DNA from: an uncultured Bacteroidota bacterium
GTDB taxonomy: Bacteria > Bacteroidota > Bacteroidia > Flavobacteriales > Flavobacteriaceae
NCBI GenBank assembly: GCA_902584445.1
Contig: CACHZY010000008.1
Coordinates: 1-64,000 of the forward strand
Reading direction: 5' to 3'
Length of the DNA stretch: 64,000 nt
Part shown: in pieces, positions 51,200 to 60,142 of the stretch
How the letters are laid out: each line of letters starts with the position of its first letter
Numbering within the stretch: position 1 is the first letter of the stretch
The notes under the pieces: generated by a model
Told to the model about the DNA's origin: nothing
Databases searched by the model: none
Seen by the model: the letters and a program-made list of their open reading frames with translations, nothing else
Program-made: the position numbers and the translations under genes

Positions 51200-51229
51200 T
51201 TGTAAAAAAAAATAAAATTCGGATATTTG
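51200..51229 (+). promoter_or_regulatory. Promoter of the arginine operon leader
   Basis: TTG at 51200-51202, a 19-base spacer and GATATTTG at 51222-51229 (7 of 8 matches to TAnnTTTG). Transcription would start within a few bases of 51238, the first base of the leader ORF, so the leader mRNA would be leaderless or nearly so. Confidence 0.62.
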
Positions 51230-51237
51230 CAGTTCAA

Positions 51238-51315
51238 ATGACTGATGCAACGACATATTACATTGGAACCTTTTCGGCTAACAGCCAGGCTCCGTTACGT
51301 CCACGCCGCCCCTAG
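51238..51315 (+). CDS. Putative arginine leader peptide, 25 codons
   Basis: An ATG at 51238 opens a 25-codon frame ending at TAG (51313-51315). The peptide begins M-T-D-A-T-T-Y-Y-I-G and ends S-Q-A-P-L-R-P-R-R-P, so three of the last five residues are arginine, encoded CGT, CGC, CGC. These GC-rich codons contrast with the AT-rich surroundings. It is placed between a promoter and a terminator-like hairpin upstream of nine arginine-pathway genes. This is the layout of transcription attenuation by leader-peptide translation, as in the trp and his operons of enteric bacteria. The peptide itself need have no function beyond ribosome timing at arginine codons. Classical arginine control in other bacteria uses the ArgR repressor, and no argR is in the window. 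Confidence 0.75.
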   Translation: MTDATTYYIGTFSANSQAPLRPRRP

Positions 51316-51374
51316 CGGGTTATTTTCTCTACATGAGACTTTGGTGTGCCCAGTCTCCTTTTACAGTTTTTTTT
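51306..51374 (+). promoter_or_regulatory. Attenuator structures of the arginine operon
   Basis: Three pieces are visible. CCGC (51306-51309) pairs with GCGG (51315-51318) across the last leader codons and stop. GAGACT (51335-51340) pairs with AGTCTC (51352-51357), with internal GG/CC pairing, and after 9 bases a run of eight Ts (51367-51374) follows; this is a terminator-like hairpin. An alternative hairpin, TCTC (51326-51329) with GAGA (51335-51338), would occupy the 5' arm of the terminator and is mutually exclusive with it. The structures end 34 bases before the first operon gene. Spacing of the T run from the stem is longer than ideal for a classic terminator. Confidence 0.6.
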
Positions 51375-51408
51375 ACCTAATTTTTAACTCTAATATTATT
51401 TGTCAATA

Positions 51409-51954
51409 ATGGAAATAGTTATTGCCAATTCAAAACATATCGTTTACGCCAAATCCATCTGCAGCTGTATTGATGAATCAGCTAAAATGAGGGGCACTGG
51501 TATTGCCAGAAGAACACCAGGATATATAATTAAAAAGATTGAGTCTGGCAATGCAGTAATAGCTATAGAAAACAATGAGTTCGCAGGTTTTTGTTATATA
51601 GAAGTCTGGGGCCATGGTAAGTATGTTGCCCACTCAGGCTTAATAGTCTCACCAAAGCACAGAGGAAAGGGATTAGCTAAGATAATAAAGAAAAACGTAT
51701 TTGATCTTTCGAAGCGAAAATTCCCAAAAGCTAAAATTTTCGGAATAACTACCGGAAAAGCCGTTATGCGTATTAATTTTGAACTTGGTTATAAACCTGT
51801 CTCATTTTCGGAGTTAACAGACGATCCAGAATTCTGGAAGGGTTGTCAAACTTGTAAAAATTATGATGTGTTGACCAGAACTGAAAGAAGTATGTGCTTA
51901 TGTACAGGAATGATATTCGACCCCAATAATGGGCAAAACAATAAATTGAGTTAA
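51409..51954 (+). CDS. GNAT-family N-acyltransferase heading the arginine operon
   Basis: The 181-residue protein (ATG 51409; a TTG at 51400 is less likely) has the GNAT fold. The acetyl-CoA loop is P-K-H-R-G-K-G-L-A-K, and a central strand reads A-G-F-C-Y-I-E-V-W. It has a characteristic C-terminus with C-Q-T-C-K-N and C-L-C-T-G-M, four cysteines that might bind metal. No argA or argJ is in the operon, so this enzyme probably makes the N-acylated glutamate, either N-acetyl or N-succinyl, that starts the pathway. That role is inference from position and from the recurrent link in flavobacteria as I recall it. Its stop abuts the argG ATG (TAA-ATG), so translation is coupled. Confidence 0.85.
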   Translation: MEIVIANSKHIVYAKSICSCIDESAKMRGTGIARRTPGYIIKKIESGNAVIAIENNEFAGFCYIEVWGHGKYVAHSGLIVSPKHRGKGLAKIIKKNVFDLSKRKFPKAKIFGITTGKAVMRINFELGYKPVSFSELTDDPEFWKGCQTCKNYDVLTRTERSMCLCTGMIFDPNNGQNNKLS

Positions 51955-53145
51955 ATGGCAAATAAAAAATTAGTGTTAGCTTATAGTGGTGGTTTGGATA
52001 CTTCCTACTGTTTAATGAAACTTTCAAAAGAGGGTTATGAAGTCCACGCAGTAAATATTAACACTGGAGGTTTTAATAAGCTGCAAATTGAGGATATGCA
52101 AACCAAAGCGATGCAAATGGGTGCACAAACCTACACATCAATTGACGCTTTATTATCTTTTTACGAAAAGGTTGTTCAATATTTGATTTACGGTAATGTA
52201 CTCAAAAATAACACCTATCCTCTGTCAGTAAGTGCGGAAAGAATAGTGCAGGCTATTGAAATCATACAATACGCCAAAAGTATTGGCGCGAATGCTATTG
52301 CCCATGGAAGTACTGGTGCAGGGAATGATCAGGTAAGGTTTGATTTAATTTTTCAGGTAATGGAGCCTGAAATTGAAATTATTAGTCCGATAAGAGACCT
52401 ACAGCTAACAAGAGAAAATGAAATTAAATATCTGAAAGAAAATGGTGTTAAGTTATCATGGGAAAAAGCTCAATATTCTATTAACCAGGGGTTGTGGGGA
52501 ACTAGTGTAGGTGGTAAAGAAACTTTAACCTCTGATCAGAATCTACCTGAATCAGCTTACCCCAGTCAGGTCAATAAAAAAACGACTGAAGAAGTTGTTT
52601 TAGAATTTCATAAAGGGGAATTAGTTGGAATCAATGGTAAAATAGACTCCCCTGTAAATAATATTTTAAAGCTTCAAAAACAAGCCAAAAAGTTTGGAAT
52701 TGGTAGAGACACTCATGTAGGAGATACAATTATTGGAATAAAGGGTAGGGTTGGATTTGAAGCTGCCGCCCCATTAATTATAATTAAGGCTCACCACCTT
52801 TTAGAAAAACACACGTTAAGTAAATGGCAACAATTTCAAAAAGAGCAATTGGGCAACTTCTATGGCATGTTACTCCATGAGGGACAATACCTTGATCCAG
52901 TGATGAGAGATTTGGAAGCTTTTTTAGCCAGCAGCCAAAATACCGTCAACGGGAAGGTCTTTGTTGCACTTCAACCTTACAGGTTTGAATTAAAAGGAAT
53001 CGATTCTCCAAATGATTTAATGAATGCCTCCTTCGGAAGTTATGGTGAAAAAAATATAGGTTGGACAGCAGATGATGCCAAAGGTTTTATCAAAATAATG
53101 TCTAATCAAAATAAGATTTACCAACATATAAATAAAGAAAAATGA
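51955..53145 (+). CDS. argG: Argininosuccinate synthase
   Basis: ArgG joins citrulline and aspartate with ATP. The 396-residue protein has the ATP pyrophosphatase loop L-A-Y-S-G-G-L-D-T-S-Y, the segment A-H-G-S-T-G-A-G-N-D-Q-V-R-F-D and S-V-G-G-K-E-T-L. It belongs to the Bacteroidota-type ArgG branch, which differs in the middle from E. coli ArgG, but its fold motifs are complete. It directly follows the GNAT gene and overlaps argC by 4 bases. Confidence 0.96.
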   Translation: MANKKLVLAYSGGLDTSYCLMKLSKEGYEVHAVNINTGGFNKLQIEDMQTKAMQMGAQTYTSIDALLSFYEKVVQYLIYGNVLKNNTYPLSVSAERIVQAIEIIQYAKSIGANAIAHGSTGAGNDQVRFDLIFQVMEPEIEIISPIRDLQLTRENEIKYLKENGVKLSWEKAQYSINQGLWGTSVGGKETLTSDQNLPESAYPSQVNKKTTEEVVLEFHKGELVGINGKIDSPVNNILKLQKQAKKFGIGRDTHVGDTIIGIKGRVGFEAAAPLIIIKAHHLLEKHTLSKWQQFQKEQLGNFYGMLLHEGQYLDPVMRDLEAFLASSQNTVNGKVFVALQPYRFELKGIDSPNDLMNASFGSYGEKNIGWTADDAKGFIKIMSNQNKIYQHINKEK

Positions 53146-54101
53146 AAAAAGTAGGTATAATTGGCGGTTCTGGATATACTGGAGGAGAGTTGATCCGGTT
53201 AGTGGTTAATCATCCAACACTTATTCTGGATTTTGTTTACAGTACTAGTAGACCTGGTACTCCACTTTACGAAACACATGTAGATTTATTAGGTAGGTCT
53301 GAGTTGAGTTTTACAGATAATATCAATTCAGAGGTTGATATAGTTTTTCTTTGTGTTGGACATGGAAAATCCGCTGGATTTCTGGAGGAACACGAATTTT
53401 CCAGCCAAACCGTCATTATTGATTTGAGCAATGACTTTAGACTAAAAAAAGATGCTCAATTTCAAGACTATGATTTTGTTTATGGTTTACCAGAGTATCA
53501 AAAAAATAAAATTCAGGGTACTAATGCAATTGCCAATCCTGGATGTTTCGCAACTGCAATTCAGTTAGCGCTCCTACCTTTGGTAAAAGAAGGTTTAATC
53601 AAAGAGGCTATTCATGTAAATGCGACTACAGGTAGTACAGGTGCAGGGGTGGGTTTGAGTTCTACTGGGCATTTCAGTTGGAGAAATAATAATGTATCAT
53701 GGTACAAACCTTTTGAGCACCAACACTTAGGTGAGATTAGAGAAACCTTGCAGGATCCTAAAATCTACTTTTTACCACAGCGAGGTAACTTTACTAGAGG
53801 TATTTTTGCAAGTTGCTATACTCCATTTGAAGAAAGTATTGAGCAAGCCGAAAATTTGTATAGAGATTACTATAATTCACATACCTTCACTCATGTTTCT
53901 GCAAAAGAGATTGCTTTAAAACAAGTAGTCAACACCAATAATTGTGTATTACATTTGCACAAGTATGAAGATCAATTATTGGTTACTTCAGCTATTGATA
54001 ATTTATTGAAAGGTGCCTCTGGACAAGCGATTCAAAATTTGAACTTAATAATGGGATGGGAAGAAGATTTAGGGCTTAAACTTAAAGCCAGTATATATTA
54101 A
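53142..54101 (+). CDS. argC: N-acyl-gamma-glutamyl-phosphate reductase
   Basis: ArgC reduces the acylglutamyl phosphate made by ArgB, with NADPH. The 319-residue protein opens I-I-G-G-S-G-Y-T-G-G-E-L-I-R-L and has the catalytic Cys in A-N-P-G-C-F-A-T-A. It continues with the segment V-N-A-T-T-G-S-T-G-A-G and Q-R-G-N-F-T-R-G. Whether the acyl group is acetyl or succinyl cannot be told from ArgC. It overlaps argG by 4 bases and is followed by proC after 17 bases. Confidence 0.95.
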   Translation: MKKVGIIGGSGYTGGELIRLVVNHPTLILDFVYSTSRPGTPLYETHVDLLGRSELSFTDNINSEVDIVFLCVGHGKSAGFLEEHEFSSQTVIIDLSNDFRLKKDAQFQDYDFVYGLPEYQKNKIQGTNAIANPGCFATAIQLALLPLVKEGLIKEAIHVNATTGSTGAGVGLSSTGHFSWRNNNVSWYKPFEHQHLGEIRETLQDPKIYFLPQRGNFTRGIFASCYTPFEESIEQAENLYRDYYNSHTFTHVSAKEIALKQVVNTNNCVLHLHKYEDQLLVTSAIDNLLKGASGQAIQNLNLIMGWEEDLGLKLKASIY

Positions 54102-54118
54102 ATTAAAGCGAAGAAAAA

Positions 54119-54913
54119 ATGAAAATAGCTATTATAGGATCAGGAAATTTAGGACTAAGTATTGCAAAAGGATTAGTCTACAACAATACTTATACTTCTC
54201 TTTACCTGACCAAAAGAGACCTCAGTGCCATCGAAAAATGGGAAGAATATAATAATGTAAAAATAACTAGTGATAACCAAGAAGCTGTCAAAAACTCTGA
54301 TATTCTGATTTTTACAGTACAGCCAATACAGTTTGACGGAATTCTAGAGGAAATTAAAGGTGCTTTGAATGATAAACACGTATTGATTTCTGCTATCACA
54401 GGTTACAGTATCAGTAGAATGGATAAGAAATTAGGTAGTAATTATCCTATTATCAGATGTATGCCTAATACTGCTATTTCTGTTGGTAAATCCATCACTT
54501 GCTTGTGTTGTAATCTTGCTGGAGAAAAAAGAATTGCTATTGCAGAGGCTATTTTTAACGGTTTGGGTACGACTATAAAAATAGCTGAAAAACAAATGCA
54601 AGCTGCTACTGTAGTTTGTGCAAGTGGAATAGCCTTTTGGATGCGATTAATAAGAGCTACGACTCAGGGTGGGGTTCAAATGGGTTTTGATGCAGACGAA
54701 TCGATGAGAATGTCAATGCATACTGCTCTTGGAGCAGCCAGTTTGTTGATTGAAACAGATTCTCATCCTGAAACTGAAATCGATAAGGTGACAACTCCTC
54801 AAGGATGTACAATCACGGGTTTAAATGAAATGGAACATCAAGGGCTAAGCTCATCACTTATCAAAGGACTAATGGCTTCTTTTGAAAAAATCAATGAAAT
54901 TAAAATTCAATAA
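54119..54913 (+). CDS. proC: Pyrroline-5-carboxylate reductase
   Basis: ProC makes proline from pyrroline-5-carboxylate with NAD(P)H. The 264-residue protein has the Rossmann start I-I-G-S-G-N-L-G-L-S-I-A-K, R-C-M-P-N-T-A-I-S-V-G and the late motif V-T-T-P-Q-G-C-T-I-T-G-L. Its place between argC and argD puts proline synthesis under the same transcript as arginine. The semialdehyde intermediates of both routes are chemically alike, so the linkage may allow shared flux. It is intact, and the same order is recalled from other flavobacteria. Confidence 0.94.
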   Translation: MKIAIIGSGNLGLSIAKGLVYNNTYTSLYLTKRDLSAIEKWEEYNNVKITSDNQEAVKNSDILIFTVQPIQFDGILEEIKGALNDKHVLISAITGYSISRMDKKLGSNYPIIRCMPNTAISVGKSITCLCCNLAGEKRIAIAEAIFNGLGTTIKIAEKQMQAATVVCASGIAFWMRLIRATTQGGVQMGFDADESMRMSMHTALGAASLLIETDSHPETEIDKVTTPQGCTITGLNEMEHQGLSSSLIKGLMASFEKINEIKIQ

Positions 54914-54924
54914 AGAATTAAGAA

Positions 54925-56046
54925 ATGAAACTATTTGACGTATACCCGCTCTATGAAGTATGTCCAGTAAGTGCTAATGACGTCTATGTGTATGACGAAG
55001 CGGGAACGGAATATTTAGATCTGTATGGAGGACATGCCGTTGTCTCAATAGGGCACAGCCACCCTTACTATGTAAATCGATTGAAAGATCAACTAAATAA
55101 AATAGCATTCTACTCCAACGCAGTAGAAAATCCATTGCAACAAGAATTAGCAGATGAGATTGGTAATCAATCAGGTTTACACAATTATCAATTATTTTTA
55201 TGTAGTTCAGGTGCTGAAGCCAATGAAAATGCCTTAAAATTAGCCTCTTTTCATACGGGAAAAAAAAGAATTATCGCTTTTAAAAATGCTTTTCATGGCA
55301 GAACTTCTGCTGCAGTAGCAGTTACTGATAATCAAAATATCAATGCACCACTAAACCAACAACAAGAGGTAACTTTCATTCCCTTTAACGATTTGGAAAA
55401 ATTGGAAAATGAATTGAAAAAAGGTGATGTCTGTGGAGTGATTTTTGAACCCATTCAAGGGGTTGGTGGATTAGATATACCTGATGATGATTTTGTTACA
55501 GGAATGAACACTTTGTGTGAAAAATACAAAAGCTGCTTGATTGCTGACGAGGTTCAGTCTGGGTTTTCAAGATCTGGTAACTTTTTTGCTTTTCAGCAAA
55601 ACAACATTAAGCCTCATGTAATCACTATGGCTAAAGGAATGGGGAACGGATTTCCTATTGGAGGCATACTCGTTCACCCAAATTTAAAACCTAAATACGG
55701 AATGTTAGGTACTACTTTTGGTGGTAATCACTTAGCATGTACTGCCTCTTTGGCCGTATTGGAAATTATCAAAAAAGACAAATTACAACAACATGCTAAA
55801 AGCATGGAAACTTATTTTAGAACTAAAGCCGAAAAGATTAAGGGTATTGAAATAAAAGGTCGTGGACTTATGCTGGGATTAGCATTTAATTTTGAAGTTG
55901 CTCCATTAAGAAAAAAATTGATTTACGAAAAAAATATTTTCACAGGTGGGAGTAGCAACAAAAATATTTTGAGAATTCTTCCTCCATTGACCGTTCAAGA
56001 AAAACATTTCGATCGGTTTTTTGATGCATTAGAAAATTTATTATGA
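54925..56046 (+). CDS. argD: N-acylornithine aminotransferase
   Basis: ArgD is a class III PLP aminotransferase that converts N-acyl-glutamate semialdehyde to N-acylornithine. The 373-residue protein shows S-S-G-A-E-A-N-E-N-A-L-K-L-A, F-H-G-R-T-S-A-A-V, A-D-E-V-Q-S-G-F and the PLP-lysine context M-A-K-G-M-G-N-G-F-P-I-G. Succinylornithine and ornithine aminotransferases share these motifs, so context decides the call. The stop overlaps the start of the transcarbamylase gene by 4 bases. Confidence 0.93.
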   Translation: MKLFDVYPLYEVCPVSANDVYVYDEAGTEYLDLYGGHAVVSIGHSHPYYVNRLKDQLNKIAFYSNAVENPLQQELADEIGNQSGLHNYQLFLCSSGAEANENALKLASFHTGKKRIIAFKNAFHGRTSAAVAVTDNQNINAPLNQQQEVTFIPFNDLEKLENELKKGDVCGVIFEPIQGVGGLDIPDDDFVTGMNTLCEKYKSCLIADEVQSGFSRSGNFFAFQQNNIKPHVITMAKGMGNGFPIGGILVHPNLKPKYGMLGTTFGGNHLACTASLAVLEIIKKDKLQQHAKSMETYFRTKAEKIKGIEIKGRGLMLGLAFNFEVAPLRKKLIYEKNIFTGGSSNKNILRILPPLTVQEKHFDRFFDALENLL

Positions 56047-56990
56047 ACCATTTTATCACATTAGCGGACTTACCTAATTTTAACCAGACCCTTAACCTAG
56101 CAATGGATTTTAAAAAGGACCCCAGTAAACTTAATACTCTAGGAAAAGGAAAGACTTTGGGGCTACTTTTTTTTATCCCCAGCTTGAGAACAAGACTGAG
56201 TACTCAAAAAGCTGCGCAAAACTTGGGTCTTAACACCATGGTTATGAATTTTAGCCAGGAATCATGGGCTTTAGAATTTGAGGACGGGACAAAGATGAGT
56301 GGACTTAGATCTGAACACGTAAGAGAAGCAGCTGCAGTAGTTTCCCAGTATTGTGATATGATTGCCATAAGGGCATTTGCTTCACTCTCTAATAAAGAAA
56401 AAGATGAAGCTGAAATCGTTTTAAAAAGTTTTACTAAATACGCAAGTGTACCAATAATCAATATGGAAAGTGCGACAGCGCACCCATTGCAAGCGGTTGC
56501 TGATGCTATAACTTTAAATGAATTTAAAACTCCTCATAAACCCAAAGTAGTATTAACTTGGGCTCCCCATCCTAAAGCGCTCCCTCATGCGGTTGGGAAT
56601 TCTTTTACAAAGATGATGGAAAACCTAGATGCCGATTTTATAATTGCTCACCCAGATGGATATGGACTCAATCCATTAATAACCAAGGGAGTAAAATGTA
56701 TTAACAACCAAGAGGAGGCTATGGAAAATGCTGATTTTATATATACAAAGAACTGGTGTTCGTATGAACATTACGGACAAATATTGAGAACAGACGATAA
56801 ATGGATGATTACACCTGAAAAGATGGAACTCACAAACAACGGGAAATTCATGCACTGTTTACCTATCAGGAGAAATATTGTTGCGGCCGATGAAGTTTTG
56901 GATAGTTCAAATTCTCTAGTTATACAGCAATCACAAAATAGAATTTACAGTGCTCAAGCAGTGCTAAAACAACTTCTAGAAAATGGATAA
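56043..56990 (+). CDS. argF': N-succinyl- (or N-acetyl-) L-ornithine transcarbamylase
   Basis: The 315-residue protein has the carbamoyl-phosphate site P-S-L-R-T-R-L-S-T-Q, the segment M-E-S-A-T-A-H-P-L-Q-A and H-C-L-P-I-R-R. The overall sequence matches the acylornithine branch (Bacteroides fragilis SOTCase, Xanthomonas AOTCase) rather than classical ornithine transcarbamylase. In those proteins one residue before the E-H pair sets acyl choice: Glu92 favours acetyl, and Pro90 (or Ser/Val substitutions) favours succinyl. Here it is Ser90 in L-R-S-E-H. That residue points to N-succinylornithine as the substrate, which is inference until tested. It overlaps argD by 4 bases and argB by 8. Confidence 0.88.
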   Translation: MNHFITLADLPNFNQTLNLAMDFKKDPSKLNTLGKGKTLGLLFFIPSLRTRLSTQKAAQNLGLNTMVMNFSQESWALEFEDGTKMSGLRSEHVREAAAVVSQYCDMIAIRAFASLSNKEKDEAEIVLKSFTKYASVPIINMESATAHPLQAVADAITLNEFKTPHKPKVVLTWAPHPKALPHAVGNSFTKMMENLDADFIIAHPDGYGLNPLITKGVKCINNQEEAMENADFIYTKNWCSYEHYGQILRTDDKWMITPEKMELTNNGKFMHCLPIRRNIVAADEVLDSSNSLVIQQSQNRIYSAQAVLKQLLENG

Positions 56991-57765
56991 GCTTTCCGTA
57001 GTAAAAATTGGTGGAAATGTTATTGAAGATGTTAAGCAATTAGCCGACTTTTTAAGTGCATTTAGCCAAATGCAAGGTGCCAAGATATTGGTGCATGGTG
57101 GGGGTAAAAAAGCTACTGTTATGGCGAAAAAGTTGGGTGTTCCAGTAAAAATTATTGAAGGAAGGAGAATAACTGATGCTGAAAATCTAGATATTATCAC
57201 CATGCTTTATGGTGGAAAGATTAATAAAAATATTGTGGCTCAATTGCAAGCTATAGGTTGTAACGCGATTGGACTCTCAGGTGCAGATGGTAATGCAATT
57301 CAAGCAGTAAAAAGGCCAAAGAAGGAAATTGACTTCGGTTTTGTTGGAGATGTAACCGAGATTAACACGTCCTTATTTAAACTTTTATTACAATCCCAAC
57401 ACCTTCCAGTCTGTTGCGCAATAACCCACGATCAAAATGGACAGCTACTTAATACAAATGCAGACACCATCGCCGCTAGTCTAGCCAAAAGCTTGTCTAA
57501 ATTTTATGAAGTTTCGCTGTTATATTGTTTTGAAATGCCAGGGGTTTTAAAAAAAATTGAGGATAAAGAAAGTGTCATTGGTGAAATCACCCCAAATAGT
57601 TACACTGAATTAAAAAATAATAATGTGATTCACTCTGGGATGATTCCCAAAATTGAGAACTGTTTTGACGCATTAAAAAAAGGGGTTTCCGAAGTGAAAA
57701 TAGGATCACCACATATGATTTCTGGAAAGTCAAAGTACACAAAACTATTTTTAGATGATGAGTGA
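56983..57765 (+). CDS. argB: Acylglutamate kinase
   Basis: ArgB phosphorylates N-acylglutamate. The 260-residue protein has K-I-G-G-N-V-I at the N-terminus, the nucleotide loop V-H-G-G-G-K-K-A and the segment G-L-S-G-A-D-G-N. The C-terminal M-I-P-K-I-E-N-C matches the kinase ATP site. It lacks the long N-terminal helix that carries arginine feedback inhibition in some other ArgB proteins, so it may be insensitive to arginine. If so, control would rest on transcription, which fits the attenuator upstream. It overlaps argF' by 8 bases and argE by 11. Confidence 0.94.
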   Translation: MDKLSVVKIGGNVIEDVKQLADFLSAFSQMQGAKILVHGGGKKATVMAKKLGVPVKIIEGRRITDAENLDIITMLYGGKINKNIVAQLQAIGCNAIGLSGADGNAIQAVKRPKKEIDFGFVGDVTEINTSLFKLLLQSQHLPVCCAITHDQNGQLLNTNADTIAASLAKSLSKFYEVSLLYCFEMPGVLKKIEDKESVIGEITPNSYTELKNNNVIHSGMIPKIENCFDALKKGVSEVKIGSPHMISGKSKYTKLFLDDE

Positions 57766-58813
57766 TTTAACAACTGCTGCAATTAATTTATTAAAAGATC
57801 TGATAGGATTACCTTCTTTTTCCAAGCAAGAGGATAAAACAGCTGACAGGATTGGGGAATGGTTTAATCACTATGGAATTCCCTATGAGAGAGATGGAAA
57901 TAATCTATGGGCAAAAAATAAAGCTTTTGACCCTCAGAAACCAACCCTTTTACTAAACTCTCATCACGACACAGTAAAGCCTAATACTGCATATACTAAT
58001 GATCCTTTTGAAGCTAAAATAGTAGATGGAAAGCTTTATGGACTCGGAAGTAATGATGCTGGTGGAGCATTGGTTTCACTAATAGCTTTATTTACTCATT
58101 ATTTTAATAAAGAAAATCCAAAATATAATTTATTGGTTGTAGCCTCAGCAGAAGAGGAAATTGCAGGTGATGACAGTTTAAGTGGCTTACTTCCAAAGCT
58201 ACCTAAAATTGATGTTGCAATTGTGGGAGAACCTACAGAAATGCATTTGGCTGTTGCGGAAAAAGGTTTAATAGTTTTTGACGCTGTCATAAAAGGAACG
58301 CCAGGCCATGCGGCTCATCCAAATGCTGATAATCCAATCATGAAACTCCCTGAAGTATTAAACTGGTTCGAAAATTTTAAACTGCAAAAATACTCTGACT
58401 TTTTAGGAGATGTAAAAGTTACTGTAACCCAGGTCAGTGCTGGAAAAGAACATAATGTTATACCAGCTAGTGTTAACTTGGTCGTTGATGTTAGAGTCAA
58501 TGATAAATATAGTAATCAAGAATTGTCAAATATATTGATCGAAGCTGCACCTTGTGAAATGACGCCCAGATCTTTAAAATTAAATTCTTCATCAATTGCA
58601 ATTGATCATGAGCTAGTTAAGGCAGGAATTAAACTAGGTAGAAAAACTTATGGTTCCCCAACCTTATCCGACCAGGCCGCACTGGAATGCCCATCTGTAA
58701 AACTAGGCCCAGGACTGTCATCAAGATCACATTCAGCTAATGAATTCATCTTTGTAAATGAAATAGAGGAAGCTATTAAGATCTACATTGACCTTATAGG
58801 TAAAATATTATAA
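57755..58813 (+). CDS. argE: N-acylornithine/N-acylcitrulline deacylase, M20 metallopeptidase
   Basis: The 352-residue protein is an M20 metal-dependent hydrolase. It has L-L-N-S-H-H-D-T-V-K-P (His and Asp metal ligands), G-S-N-D-A-G-G-A-L and S-A-E-E-E-I-A-G with the catalytic Glu pair. It continues with V-G-E-P-T-E-M-H-L-A and a dimerisation domain with P-G-H-A-A-H-P-N. In acylcitrulline pathways this enzyme removes the acyl group after the transcarbamylase step. Position within the operon supports that role; DapE-type deacylase is the main alternative. It overlaps argB and is followed by argH after 30 bases. Confidence 0.9.
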   Translation: MMSDLTTAAINLLKDLIGLPSFSKQEDKTADRIGEWFNHYGIPYERDGNNLWAKNKAFDPQKPTLLLNSHHDTVKPNTAYTNDPFEAKIVDGKLYGLGSNDAGGALVSLIALFTHYFNKENPKYNLLVVASAEEEIAGDDSLSGLLPKLPKIDVAIVGEPTEMHLAVAEKGLIVFDAVIKGTPGHAAHPNADNPIMKLPEVLNWFENFKLQKYSDFLGDVKVTVTQVSAGKEHNVIPASVNLVVDVRVNDKYSNQELSNILIEAAPCEMTPRSLKLNSSSIAIDHELVKAGIKLGRKTYGSPTLSDQAALECPSVKLGPGLSSRSHSANEFIFVNEIEEAIKIYIDLIGKIL

Positions 58814-58843
58814 TTAAATAATAAAAAATTAAAAAACTGAATA

Positions 58844-60142
58844 ATGAAACTTTGGCAAAAAAATACACCGGCTAACGATAAAATTACCGATTTTACTGTG
58901 GGTAAAGACCGATATTTTGATCTGCATCTCGCTGCATACGATTGCCAGGCCTCTATTGCACATACTGAAATGTTGGGTAAAATAGGAGTATTGACAAAAC
59001 AGGAGGCTCAAGCAATTGTGGACGTCTTAAACGAACTTAAATCTCAAGCAGAAAATAGCAAGTTTGTGATTGAGGATTCCTTTGAAGACATGCATTCAAA
59101 AATAGAATTCATACTAACTGAAAAATTGGGCGATTTAGGTAAAAAGATTCACACAGCAAGATCTAGAAACGATCAAGTTTTAGCGGCAATGCACCTATAT
59201 CTAAAGGAGGAGATAGCAGTAATTAAAACTATGACCTACGACTTCTTTAAGCTTTTAATAAAACTTTCTGAACAACATAAAGATAAATTATTACCTGGAT
59301 ATACTCACTTCCAAGTGGCTATGCCTTCTTCTTTTGGACTGTGGTTTTCAGCTTATGCTGAAAGTTTAATTGATGATATAACCCTTTTGAATGCTGCAAG
59401 AAAAATAGTTGATCAAAATCCGTTGGGTAGTGCTGCAGGCTTTGGTAGTTCATTCCCTATTGACAGAAAAGCAACTACAGAAAGTCTGAATTTTAGGGAT
59501 TTGAAATACAACGTCATTGCTGCTCAAATGAGTAGAGGTAAGGCAGAAAAGACAACTGCTTTCGCGATAGCATCTTTGTCGGCTAACCTTTCAAAAATGG
59601 CAAATGACATTTGCTTATACATGAGCCAAGAACACAATTTTATTAGTTTTCCAGAAGATTTGACCACCGGATCTAGCATAATGCCACATAAAAAAAATCC
59701 GGATGTTTTTGAATTGATTAGAGGTAAAAGTAATATGCTTCAAGGATTACCAAATCAGTTGATTTTGCTAACATCCAATTTGCCTTCAGGCTATCACAGA
59801 GAAATGCAACTTACCAAAGGACTAATCATTGAAGGTATAGAGGATATAAAAGCTTGTTTGGATATTTTTAATTTTAGTTTGAAAGAGATACAAATCAGAG
59901 AAAAAATTCTGGAGGACCCTAAATACAAATATGTATTTAGCGTTGACACACTAAACGAATGGGTCAAAGAGGGTATGCCATTTAGAGACGCTTATAAAAA
60001 AATGTGGGAAGCAATCAATAAAGGTGATTACCAACCAAAAAAAGAATTAGACCACACCCATTTGGGTAGTTTGGGAAATTTAGCTCTAGATGAAATTCAA
60101 ACTAAAATGGAACAGGCTTTAAAGTCCGGATCAAATGTGTAA
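58844..60142 (+). CDS. argH: Argininosuccinate lyase
   Basis: ArgH splits argininosuccinate to arginine and fumarate, completing the pathway. The 432-residue protein has the family signature G-S-S-I-M-P-H-K-K-N-P and the segment T-A-R-S-R-N-D-Q-V. The final third has D-T-L-N-E-W-V-K-E-G. It is the last of nine arginine genes after the leader, and its 3' end overlaps the convergent lpdA gene by 12 bases. The fumarate released can enter the TCA cycle via FumC. Confidence 0.96.
   Translation: MKLWQKNTPANDKITDFTVGKDRYFDLHLAAYDCQASIAHTEMLGKIGVLTKQEAQAIVDVLNELKSQAENSKFVIEDSFEDMHSKIEFILTEKLGDLGKKIHTARSRNDQVLAAMHLYLKEEIAVIKTMTYDFFKLLIKLSEQHKDKLLPGYTHFQVAMPSSFGLWFSAYAESLIDDITLLNAARKIVDQNPLGSAAGFGSSFPIDRKATTESLNFRDLKYNVIAAQMSRGKAEKTTAFAIASLSANLSKMANDICLYMSQEHNFISFPEDLTTGSSIMPHKKNPDVFELIRGKSNMLQGLPNQLILLTSNLPSGYHREMQLTKGLIIEGIEDIKACLDIFNFSLKEIQIREKILEDPKYKYVFSVDTLNEWVKEGMPFRDAYKKMWEAINKGDYQPKKELDHTHLGSLGNLALDEIQTKMEQALKSGSNV

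Follow-up and report, generated by a model that had tools for sequence, protein, structure and literature searches.

The arg operon in the window, the 64,000-nucleotide stretch of flavobacterial DNA analyzed here, is preceded by a leader that is conserved across the family and that is probably arginine responsive, with sensing by the translation of Arg codons in a short open reading frame (ORF) and an output other than an intrinsic terminator. Arginine sensing by leader translation is the well-supported half of this reading, because a putative Arg-rich frame is kept open in relatives, its Arg codons are CGC and CGT, further Arg-rich ORFs occur upstream, and ArgR was detected in none of the sampled genomes of the order. 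The output may involve the second of two covarying hairpins, the apex of which is conserved; that the output works through a device reading this apex is, taken as a claim of its own, possible, if doubtful.

The leader and operon of the window

An earlier note on this DNA had described a promoter, a 25-codon ORF, hairpins at 51306-51318 (hp1) and 51335-51357 (hp2), and a T8 run, and direct reading places all of them where it did (Table 1). Pfam matches likewise bear out its nine arginine-pathway genes downstream of the leader, GNAT through argH. We take TTG-N19-GATATTTG to be a Bacteroidota-type promoter; CAGTTCAA lies between GATATTTG and the ATG at 51238. Three of the final five residues of the ORF are Arg, encoded by CGT, CGC, and CGC. 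In the spacer between the hairpins, TCTC (51326-51329) is able to pair with GAGA (51335-51338) of hp2, and the T8 run (51367-51374) starts 10 bases past the hp2 stem. Although the single-sequence fold of the leader is ordinary (z = -0.93), its strong conservation goes far beyond chance and confirms the observation.

Table 1. Positions of the leader features and operon genes in the window
Feature	Positions	Strand	Remarks
Promoter	51200..51229	+	TTG 51200-51202, N19, GATATTTG 51222-51229; read directly
Leader ORF MTDATTYYIGTFSANSQAPLRPRRP	51238..51315	+	25 codons, end R-P-R-R-P-stop; near-leaderless
Overlapping 54-codon ORF	51245..51409	+	+1 frame; TAA overlaps GNAT start (TAATG)
Control codons	51298..51312	+	CGT-CCA-CGC-CGC-CCC
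hp1	51306..51319	+	stem CCGC/GCGG, stop codon in loop; aligned with CGCCC-GTAA-GGGTG of other genera
U-rich spacer, hp1 to hp2	51320..51334	+	includes TCTC
hp2	51335..51357	+	stem GAGACT/AGTCTC, covarying
Apical element of hp2, GGTGTGCCC	51343..51351	+	family consensus GGTGnGYCC
GNAT acetyltransferase, operon gene 1	51409..51954	+	PF00583
argG, argC, proC-like, argD-like, argF-like, argB-like, M20 deacylase (argE-like), argH	51955..60142	+	assigned at Pfam level only

At the C terminus of GNAT (51844-51903 in the window), four cysteines (CxxC ... CxC) are invariant across eight aligned GNAT proteins; they are a possible metal or RNA site.

Distribution of the leader and its linkage to the arg operon

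A protein search found GNAT in 36 of 60 genomes, the window's own included, and 30 of the loci were fetched: 28 have the hp2 apex upstream of GNAT, and two that belong to other families, L029 and L030, have GNAT without it. R1, a covariance model of both hairpins built on 28 loci from the GNAT search, matches 199 of 299 genomes of the window's family (E ≤ 0.1; 17 of these matches are weaker than 1e-6, and some of the 299 genomes also served in building R1), which corresponds to 159 of 230 sampled genera of the family. The 30 best R1 matches all lie upstream of GNAT and argG, and among 80 further matches fetched, 78 have the GNAT N terminus downstream. With the start reversed, R1 is found in 79 of 80 loci of named genomes chosen by GNAT (E ≤ 0.01; 5 weaker than 1e-6), among them records of Zobellia, Maribacter, Gillisia, Cellulophaga, Leeuwenhoekiella, Dokdonia, Tenacibaculum, Polaribacter, Formosa, and Winogradskyella. 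Both searches were run on 15 other genera of the family (G022-G036): ten have GNAT and R1, and five have neither. As the leaders are related to one another, these counts are not independent.

Beyond the family, 20 of 196 genomes of the order match R1 (E ≤ 0.01); the 15 strong matches are all in the window's family, and five weak ones fall outside it. Extra matches in 22 genomes picked for multiple R1 hits are weak (best, 4.7e-4), and three genomes (G290, G070, and G061) have weak R1 matches only. Rfam 15 gave no credible match for the window and seven relatives, with chance-level matches only at gathering and loose E-values. An RNA element that is conserved, specific to arg, and without a counterpart in Rfam is, in our view, the more interesting finding. 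The comparison with relatives that the earlier note had called for, looking for terminal Arg codons in the ORF and for covarying stems, found both across the family.

Arginine synthesis is the usual textbook case of control by the repressor ArgR or AhrC. A search for the ArgR C-terminal domain (PF02863) gave 0 hits in the 60 genomes sampled from the order, of which 36 are at least 90% complete (the window's own genome is 69% complete); as the positive control, 8 of 14 control genomes, a Bacteroides included, have the domain.

R1 is not the only leader design. In the large genus g145, GNAT is present in 6 of 6 genomes tested, and R1 was not found. Five loci of this genus (L148-L152) have another leader, in which an ORF of the MNKISLHITSLSRTNSPITSPEVRTLSL type uses CGG Arg codons and is accompanied by the inverted repeats TTTGTC/GACAAA and ACTTC/GAAGT; since this leader is unlike R1, the arginine leaders of the order have more than one design. 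In two loci from other families, L159 (about 200 to 120 bases before GNAT) and L158, FFRRP or RRRP occurs with an hp1-like sequence, and no hp2 was seen by eye; these leaders are perhaps an older form.

Arginine codons of the leader ORF

The window's spacing of TTTG-8nt-ATG, followed by the same 25 codons, recurs in 14 of the 16 loci L001-L016, the window included (L003 and L004 contain N and are unreadable by this pattern), and the stop codon is TAG in 13 of those 14, L013 having TTG instead. For a wider comparison, 186 distinct leaders remained from 212 after removal of 13 duplicates and of 13 leaders in which the search pattern is missing (11 named loci plus L009 and L013; R1 matches 10 of the 11, L178 being the exception). 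Upstream of hp1, the Arg-codon frame runs open over 24 codons or more in 179 of the 186, as against 33 and 59 for the other frames, and an ATG stands 2 to 9 bases after TTTG, as in the window, in 63 of them.

Arg makes up 14.8% of the leader ORF codons (178 leaders with a start; none was found in 8), and CGC and CGT together supply 682 of the 767 Arg codons. For comparison, GNAT genes in the 80 named loci give 4.1% and 167 of 662, and 75 argG-side reading frames from named relatives give 2.5% and 146 of 710; in eleven genes of the window, CGC and CGT account for 7 of 96 Arg codons. The earlier note's remark that CGT and CGC stand out therefore holds: they are minor codons in the neighboring genes. 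Clustered codons for the amino acid made by the pathway, the mark of his- and trp-type leaders, are accordingly what the predicted ORF displays. An additional Arg-rich ORF lies further upstream in 54 of 186 leaders as against 1.25 in shuffles, which spanned 220 bases where the real search spanned 310; 19 of the 54 end in RRR-stop (e.g., MNSKKNKIRTFSPSLRLRNRRR), and a few of them look like chance.

Apart from Arg, the leader peptides have little in common. Codons 9 through 18 of the ORF, compared over 14 N-free rows of the window's genus, exceed column shuffles by similarity score (5/500) and by lack of stops (4/500), though not by identity (72/500). The near-leaderless, Arg-rich control ORF that had been proposed before the arg operon is conserved in relatives and, judging from these patterns, probably translated. 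As a separate observation, the first codons of the leader (ATGAAAGATGCAACGACAT; ATGACTGATGCAACGACAT in the window, 51238-51256) are nearly unchanged at the base level in L001-L016, unlike the middle of the ORF, which is very variable; their constancy may reflect the overlapping frame described below or leaderless initiation.

Hairpin 1 overlaps the last Arg codons

The final Arg codons form most of the 5' arm of hp1. Its stem varies by G-U/G-C change, and in 5 of the 99 rows one pair is A-U in place of C-G; 29 of 96 rows leave the outermost modeled pair unpaired. The C-G to A-U change turns the Pro codon into Thr, so that the pairing is kept and the residue is not, and Pro is replaced by Thr with a compensating change in hp1 in six leaders (L022, L051, L059, L061, L109, and L120).

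These substitutions bear on the possibility of an arrest peptide, in which the nascent RRP-stop chain would sense free arginine and block termination, as the arrest peptides TnaC and SpeFL do. In 155 of 186 leaders, Arg-Arg-x directly precedes a stop codon at a constant position, as such a peptide would have it. The six leaders with Thr, however, retain the pairing rather than the residue, the ORF continues past hp1 in 31 of the 186, and a conserved peptide beyond Arg together with its stop codon, by which an arrest peptide would be recognized, was not found among the 186; we consider this explanation very improbable.

The GCCC of hp1, the start of which falls in the last Arg codon, lies 32 to 35 nt from the apex of hp2 in 124 of 131 leaders, and the intervening spacer is conserved only in its U-richness. 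Together with this spacer, hp1 is picked up by a loose terminator scan in at least 25 of 132 leaders, so hp1 may act as a weak terminator.

Hairpin 2 has a covarying stem and a conserved apex

Fitted to R1, an alignment of 99 distinct rows has 93.2% of cells paired and eight pairs changed on both sides; for hp2, such changes affect 7 of 8 pairs. Over both hairpins there are 89 doubly changed cells as against 26.8 in shuffles (0/500 reaching the observed value) in this alignment, which leans toward the model; the first alignment, made without structure, agrees (21 against 7.4).

The apex reads GGUGnGYCC in 70 of the 79 R1 matches among the 80 loci chosen by GNAT alone. In L233 and L241, GAUGAGUUC at the apex amounts to a compensated inner pair, GA/TC, and the same compensated pair is found in L081 and L094 (GATG.GTTC). 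The apex deviates in 7 of the 79, in L217 and L235 beyond recognition. A set of 116 leaders gives a higher invariance that is partly built in, as its rows were picked by a near-identical pattern; this pattern-selected set is without L128, and its profile is also without L111 and most rows of the genus.

R2, a model of hp2 only, gave 23 matches with E < 0.01 in 36 genomes, 23 of 23 at GNAT-argG, and no match in 3 of the 36. Among the R2 loci fetched, 28 of 30 lie at GNAT-argG, and the other two (G099 and G064) are weak and elsewhere. Since its strong matches are confined to the arg operon, hp2 is not a general device; this linkage and the conserved apex may point to a partner particular to the arg system.

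Two related explanations would have hp2 take part in recognizing arginine. In one, hp2, perhaps with hp1, would be recognized by an undescribed regulator specific to arginine, be it arginine itself, bound by a minimal natural aptamer, or an RNA-binding protein that replaces ArgR in the family, with the Arg ORFs controlling access; were this so, the leader would combine codon reading with direct recognition, and we hold it to be rather unlikely. The other, which we rate slightly lower still and as unlikely, has hp2 (with hp1) either sense arginine directly or bind an RNA-binding protein specific to arginine, the Arg ORFs being a second input. The strong conservation of the apex, the compensated inner pair in the four loci named above, and the restriction of the strong R2 matches to GNAT-argG all speak for a sensor of this kind. 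Hp2 is nevertheless small for an aptamer, its apex is altered or lost in the seven deviating loci, certain copies at arg do not outscore matches scattered elsewhere (G099), and g145 has GNAT without an hp2 element.

Two other pairing partners for the apex were rejected by inspection. Pairing with the Arg codons, which the fold of the window offers (CACGCC with GGTGTG), is broken by GGTGCG in most of the genus and by CGCAC variants elsewhere. Pairing with the 16S anti-Shine-Dalgarno sequence, judged by eye, was dropped because the compensated inner pair of L081, L094, L233, and L241 fits a hairpin.

In five leaders (L217, L235, L172, L170, and L171), hp1 and the Arg codons are kept and the hp2 apex is changed or lost. 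These are natural variants that could show the role of the apex.

Hairpin 2 and intrinsic termination

The earlier note had seen in the window a classic attenuation layout. The Arg-codon ORF as sensor is well supported, and the intrinsic terminator as output is not. From the letters of the window, neither the second Arg-rich ORF of relatives nor the conservation of the hp2 apex nor the lack of ArgR could be seen. The mean U-tract score after hp2 is 1.80 (181 leaders), near the 1.56 of random leader positions; it is 2.06 after hp1, and the tail of the window's own hp2 is above average at 3.49. A run of at least six T occurs within 16 bases of the hp2 stem in only 7 of 186 leaders, and the loose scan found a terminator-like site at or behind hp2 in 2 of 132 (L009 and L070) among the sites listed. 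Of 18 loci in the genus, 17 have a run of 6 to 8 T at some point from hp2 to GNAT.

The family's his leaders, which serve here as the positive control, differ. Upstream of hisG, leaders L141-L147 (L141 is from the window's genome) have strong intrinsic terminators in 7 of 7, with U-tract scores of 4.55 to 5.57 and stems of -10.9 to -14.6 kcal/mol, and 5 of 7 have an ORF with at least three His (e.g., MKFIQSHHHHHHICT). By these sequence features, the his leaders show themselves to be plain attenuators, and the group can be taken to use leader-peptide attenuation.

The alternative TCTC/GAGA stem proposed as antiterminator is present in the window and retained in most of its genus; outside the genus it lacks support. 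Complementarity between the spacer and the 5' arm of hp2 exceeds that of shuffled spacers (z = 3.9) but barely that of spacers swapped between species (z = 1.9 over all); outside the genus it is no better than the species swaps (z = 1.0; 31 of 200 swaps reach or exceed the observed value), and no covariation was seen there. This test used 130 rows, of which five with a badly located stem (0 to 2 pairs) were kept in the averages.

Textbook transcription attenuation, with hp2 as intrinsic terminator and TCTC/GAGA as antiterminator, is therefore improbable. It would account for the Arg codons, hairpins, and T8 of the window, for the score of its tail, for the TCTC/GAGA of most of the genus, and for the scan passes of hp1 with its spacer; it sits poorly with a U-tract near background where the his terminators score far higher, with the scarcity of T runs near the stem, with an alternative stem that does not covary outside the genus, and with a conserved apex, which is unexpected in a terminator.

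A 54-codon frame overlapping the leader in the window's genus

Sixteen of the 18 loci of the genus, the window included, keep the 54-codon frame open at an unchanged length; it is absent from L017 and L018. Tested against column shuffles on 14 N-free rows (two genus rows with N are omitted), codons 15 through 54 are protein-like (0/500 shuffles as good), as is the part behind hp2 (2/500), although codons 8 through 16 give no signal (108/500) and no codon periodicity is found behind hp2. Ribosomes could reach this frame by a +1 slip at the CCC-UAG with which the 25-codon ORF closes.

In most of the window's genus, the 54-codon frame could couple GNAT translation to the leader. As an explanation of the control, this would mean that ribosomes enter the frame at the second ATG or by the slip at CCC-UAG, cross both hairpins, and reinitiate at TAATG. 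The constancy of the frame and its excess over the shuffles (500 of 500 for codons 15 through 54 and 498 of 500 behind hp2) argue for such coupling; the two loci without it, its loss outside the genus, the lack of periodicity, and the silence of codons 8 through 16 argue against, and we give it little credence. As a general mechanism, the frame was rejected: in the test reaching outside the genus, only 36 of 184 leaders are open to the GNAT start, 15 of the 184 having the stop of that frame at TAATG or a similar site, and 29 are open in another frame.

Discussion

Ribosomes reading clustered, locally rare Arg codons would explain the frame, the codons, their position, and the operon together, and this is our reading of the leader. 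Comparison shows the ORFs with their Arg content and frame, both hairpins and their spacing, and the link to the operon, along with no ArgR found and no U-tract next to hp2. For its working we infer translation, stalling, the sign of control, and all of the output. Ribosomes would translate the short ORF packed with CGC and CGT; in the genus they would begin at the very 5' end of the transcript or beside it, and some relatives have another Arg-rich ORF that comes first. When charged tRNA-Arg is short, they would stall on the Arg codons; when it is plentiful, they would reach the stop codon inside hp1. Since hp1 has its 5' arm in the last Arg codons, the position of the ribosome would decide the folding of hp1 and, with it, the presentation of hp2 about 25 nt further on. 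Hp2 would then act on the operon through a device recognizing its apex, at an elongation, termination, or RNA-stability step, and low arginine would switch the operon on. Given the size of a ribosome, one that is terminating would end a few bases short of hp2; since such a ribosome would cover hp1 when arginine is abundant as well, the anatomy does not dictate the sign of control.

Attenuators of the his, trp, and leu type consist of a short ORF with codons for the end product and hairpins behind it, before an operon of the same pathway. The arg leader is alike in its Arg-codon ORF, its hairpins, and the operon that follows, and unlike in having no intrinsic terminator at hp2, a conserved hairpin apex, in some cases two control ORFs, and as its subject arginine, which is usually left to ArgR or AhrC.

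Parallels for reading arginine through a leader ORF exist elsewhere. In the leader of Salmonella speF, ribosome pausing in orf34/speFL under low arginine selects an RNA structure, and the output involves RNase G and Rho with no intrinsic terminator (PMC6386406). Like the arg leader, orf34/speFL has two consecutive Arg codons, but it acts on ornithine decarboxylase and not on arginine synthesis (PMC6386406). The Staphylococcus aureus rbfL is a short ORF whose rare Arg codons sense arginine limitation, as the arg leader would; it differs in having 8 codons, in blocking the next ribosome-binding site, in lowering expression when arginine is low, and in the gene controlled (PMC13009471). For Flavobacterium psychrophilum, leader-peptide attenuation has been suggested for amino-acid operons from structured 5' regions, and the conserved elements named in the relevant section are those of pheA and hisG, not arg (PMC9723704).

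Searches of the openly licensed subset of PMC, which is incomplete, brought up no flavobacterial arginine biosynthesis operon described as being under the control of a leader peptide. Since the his leaders of the family are plain attenuators, the arg leader is their natural contrast: the sensing principle would be shared and the output apparently different. The conserved apex of hp2 offers a handle for finding the partner, and in an order in whose sampled genomes ArgR was not detected the leader is a testable replacement for the missing regulator.
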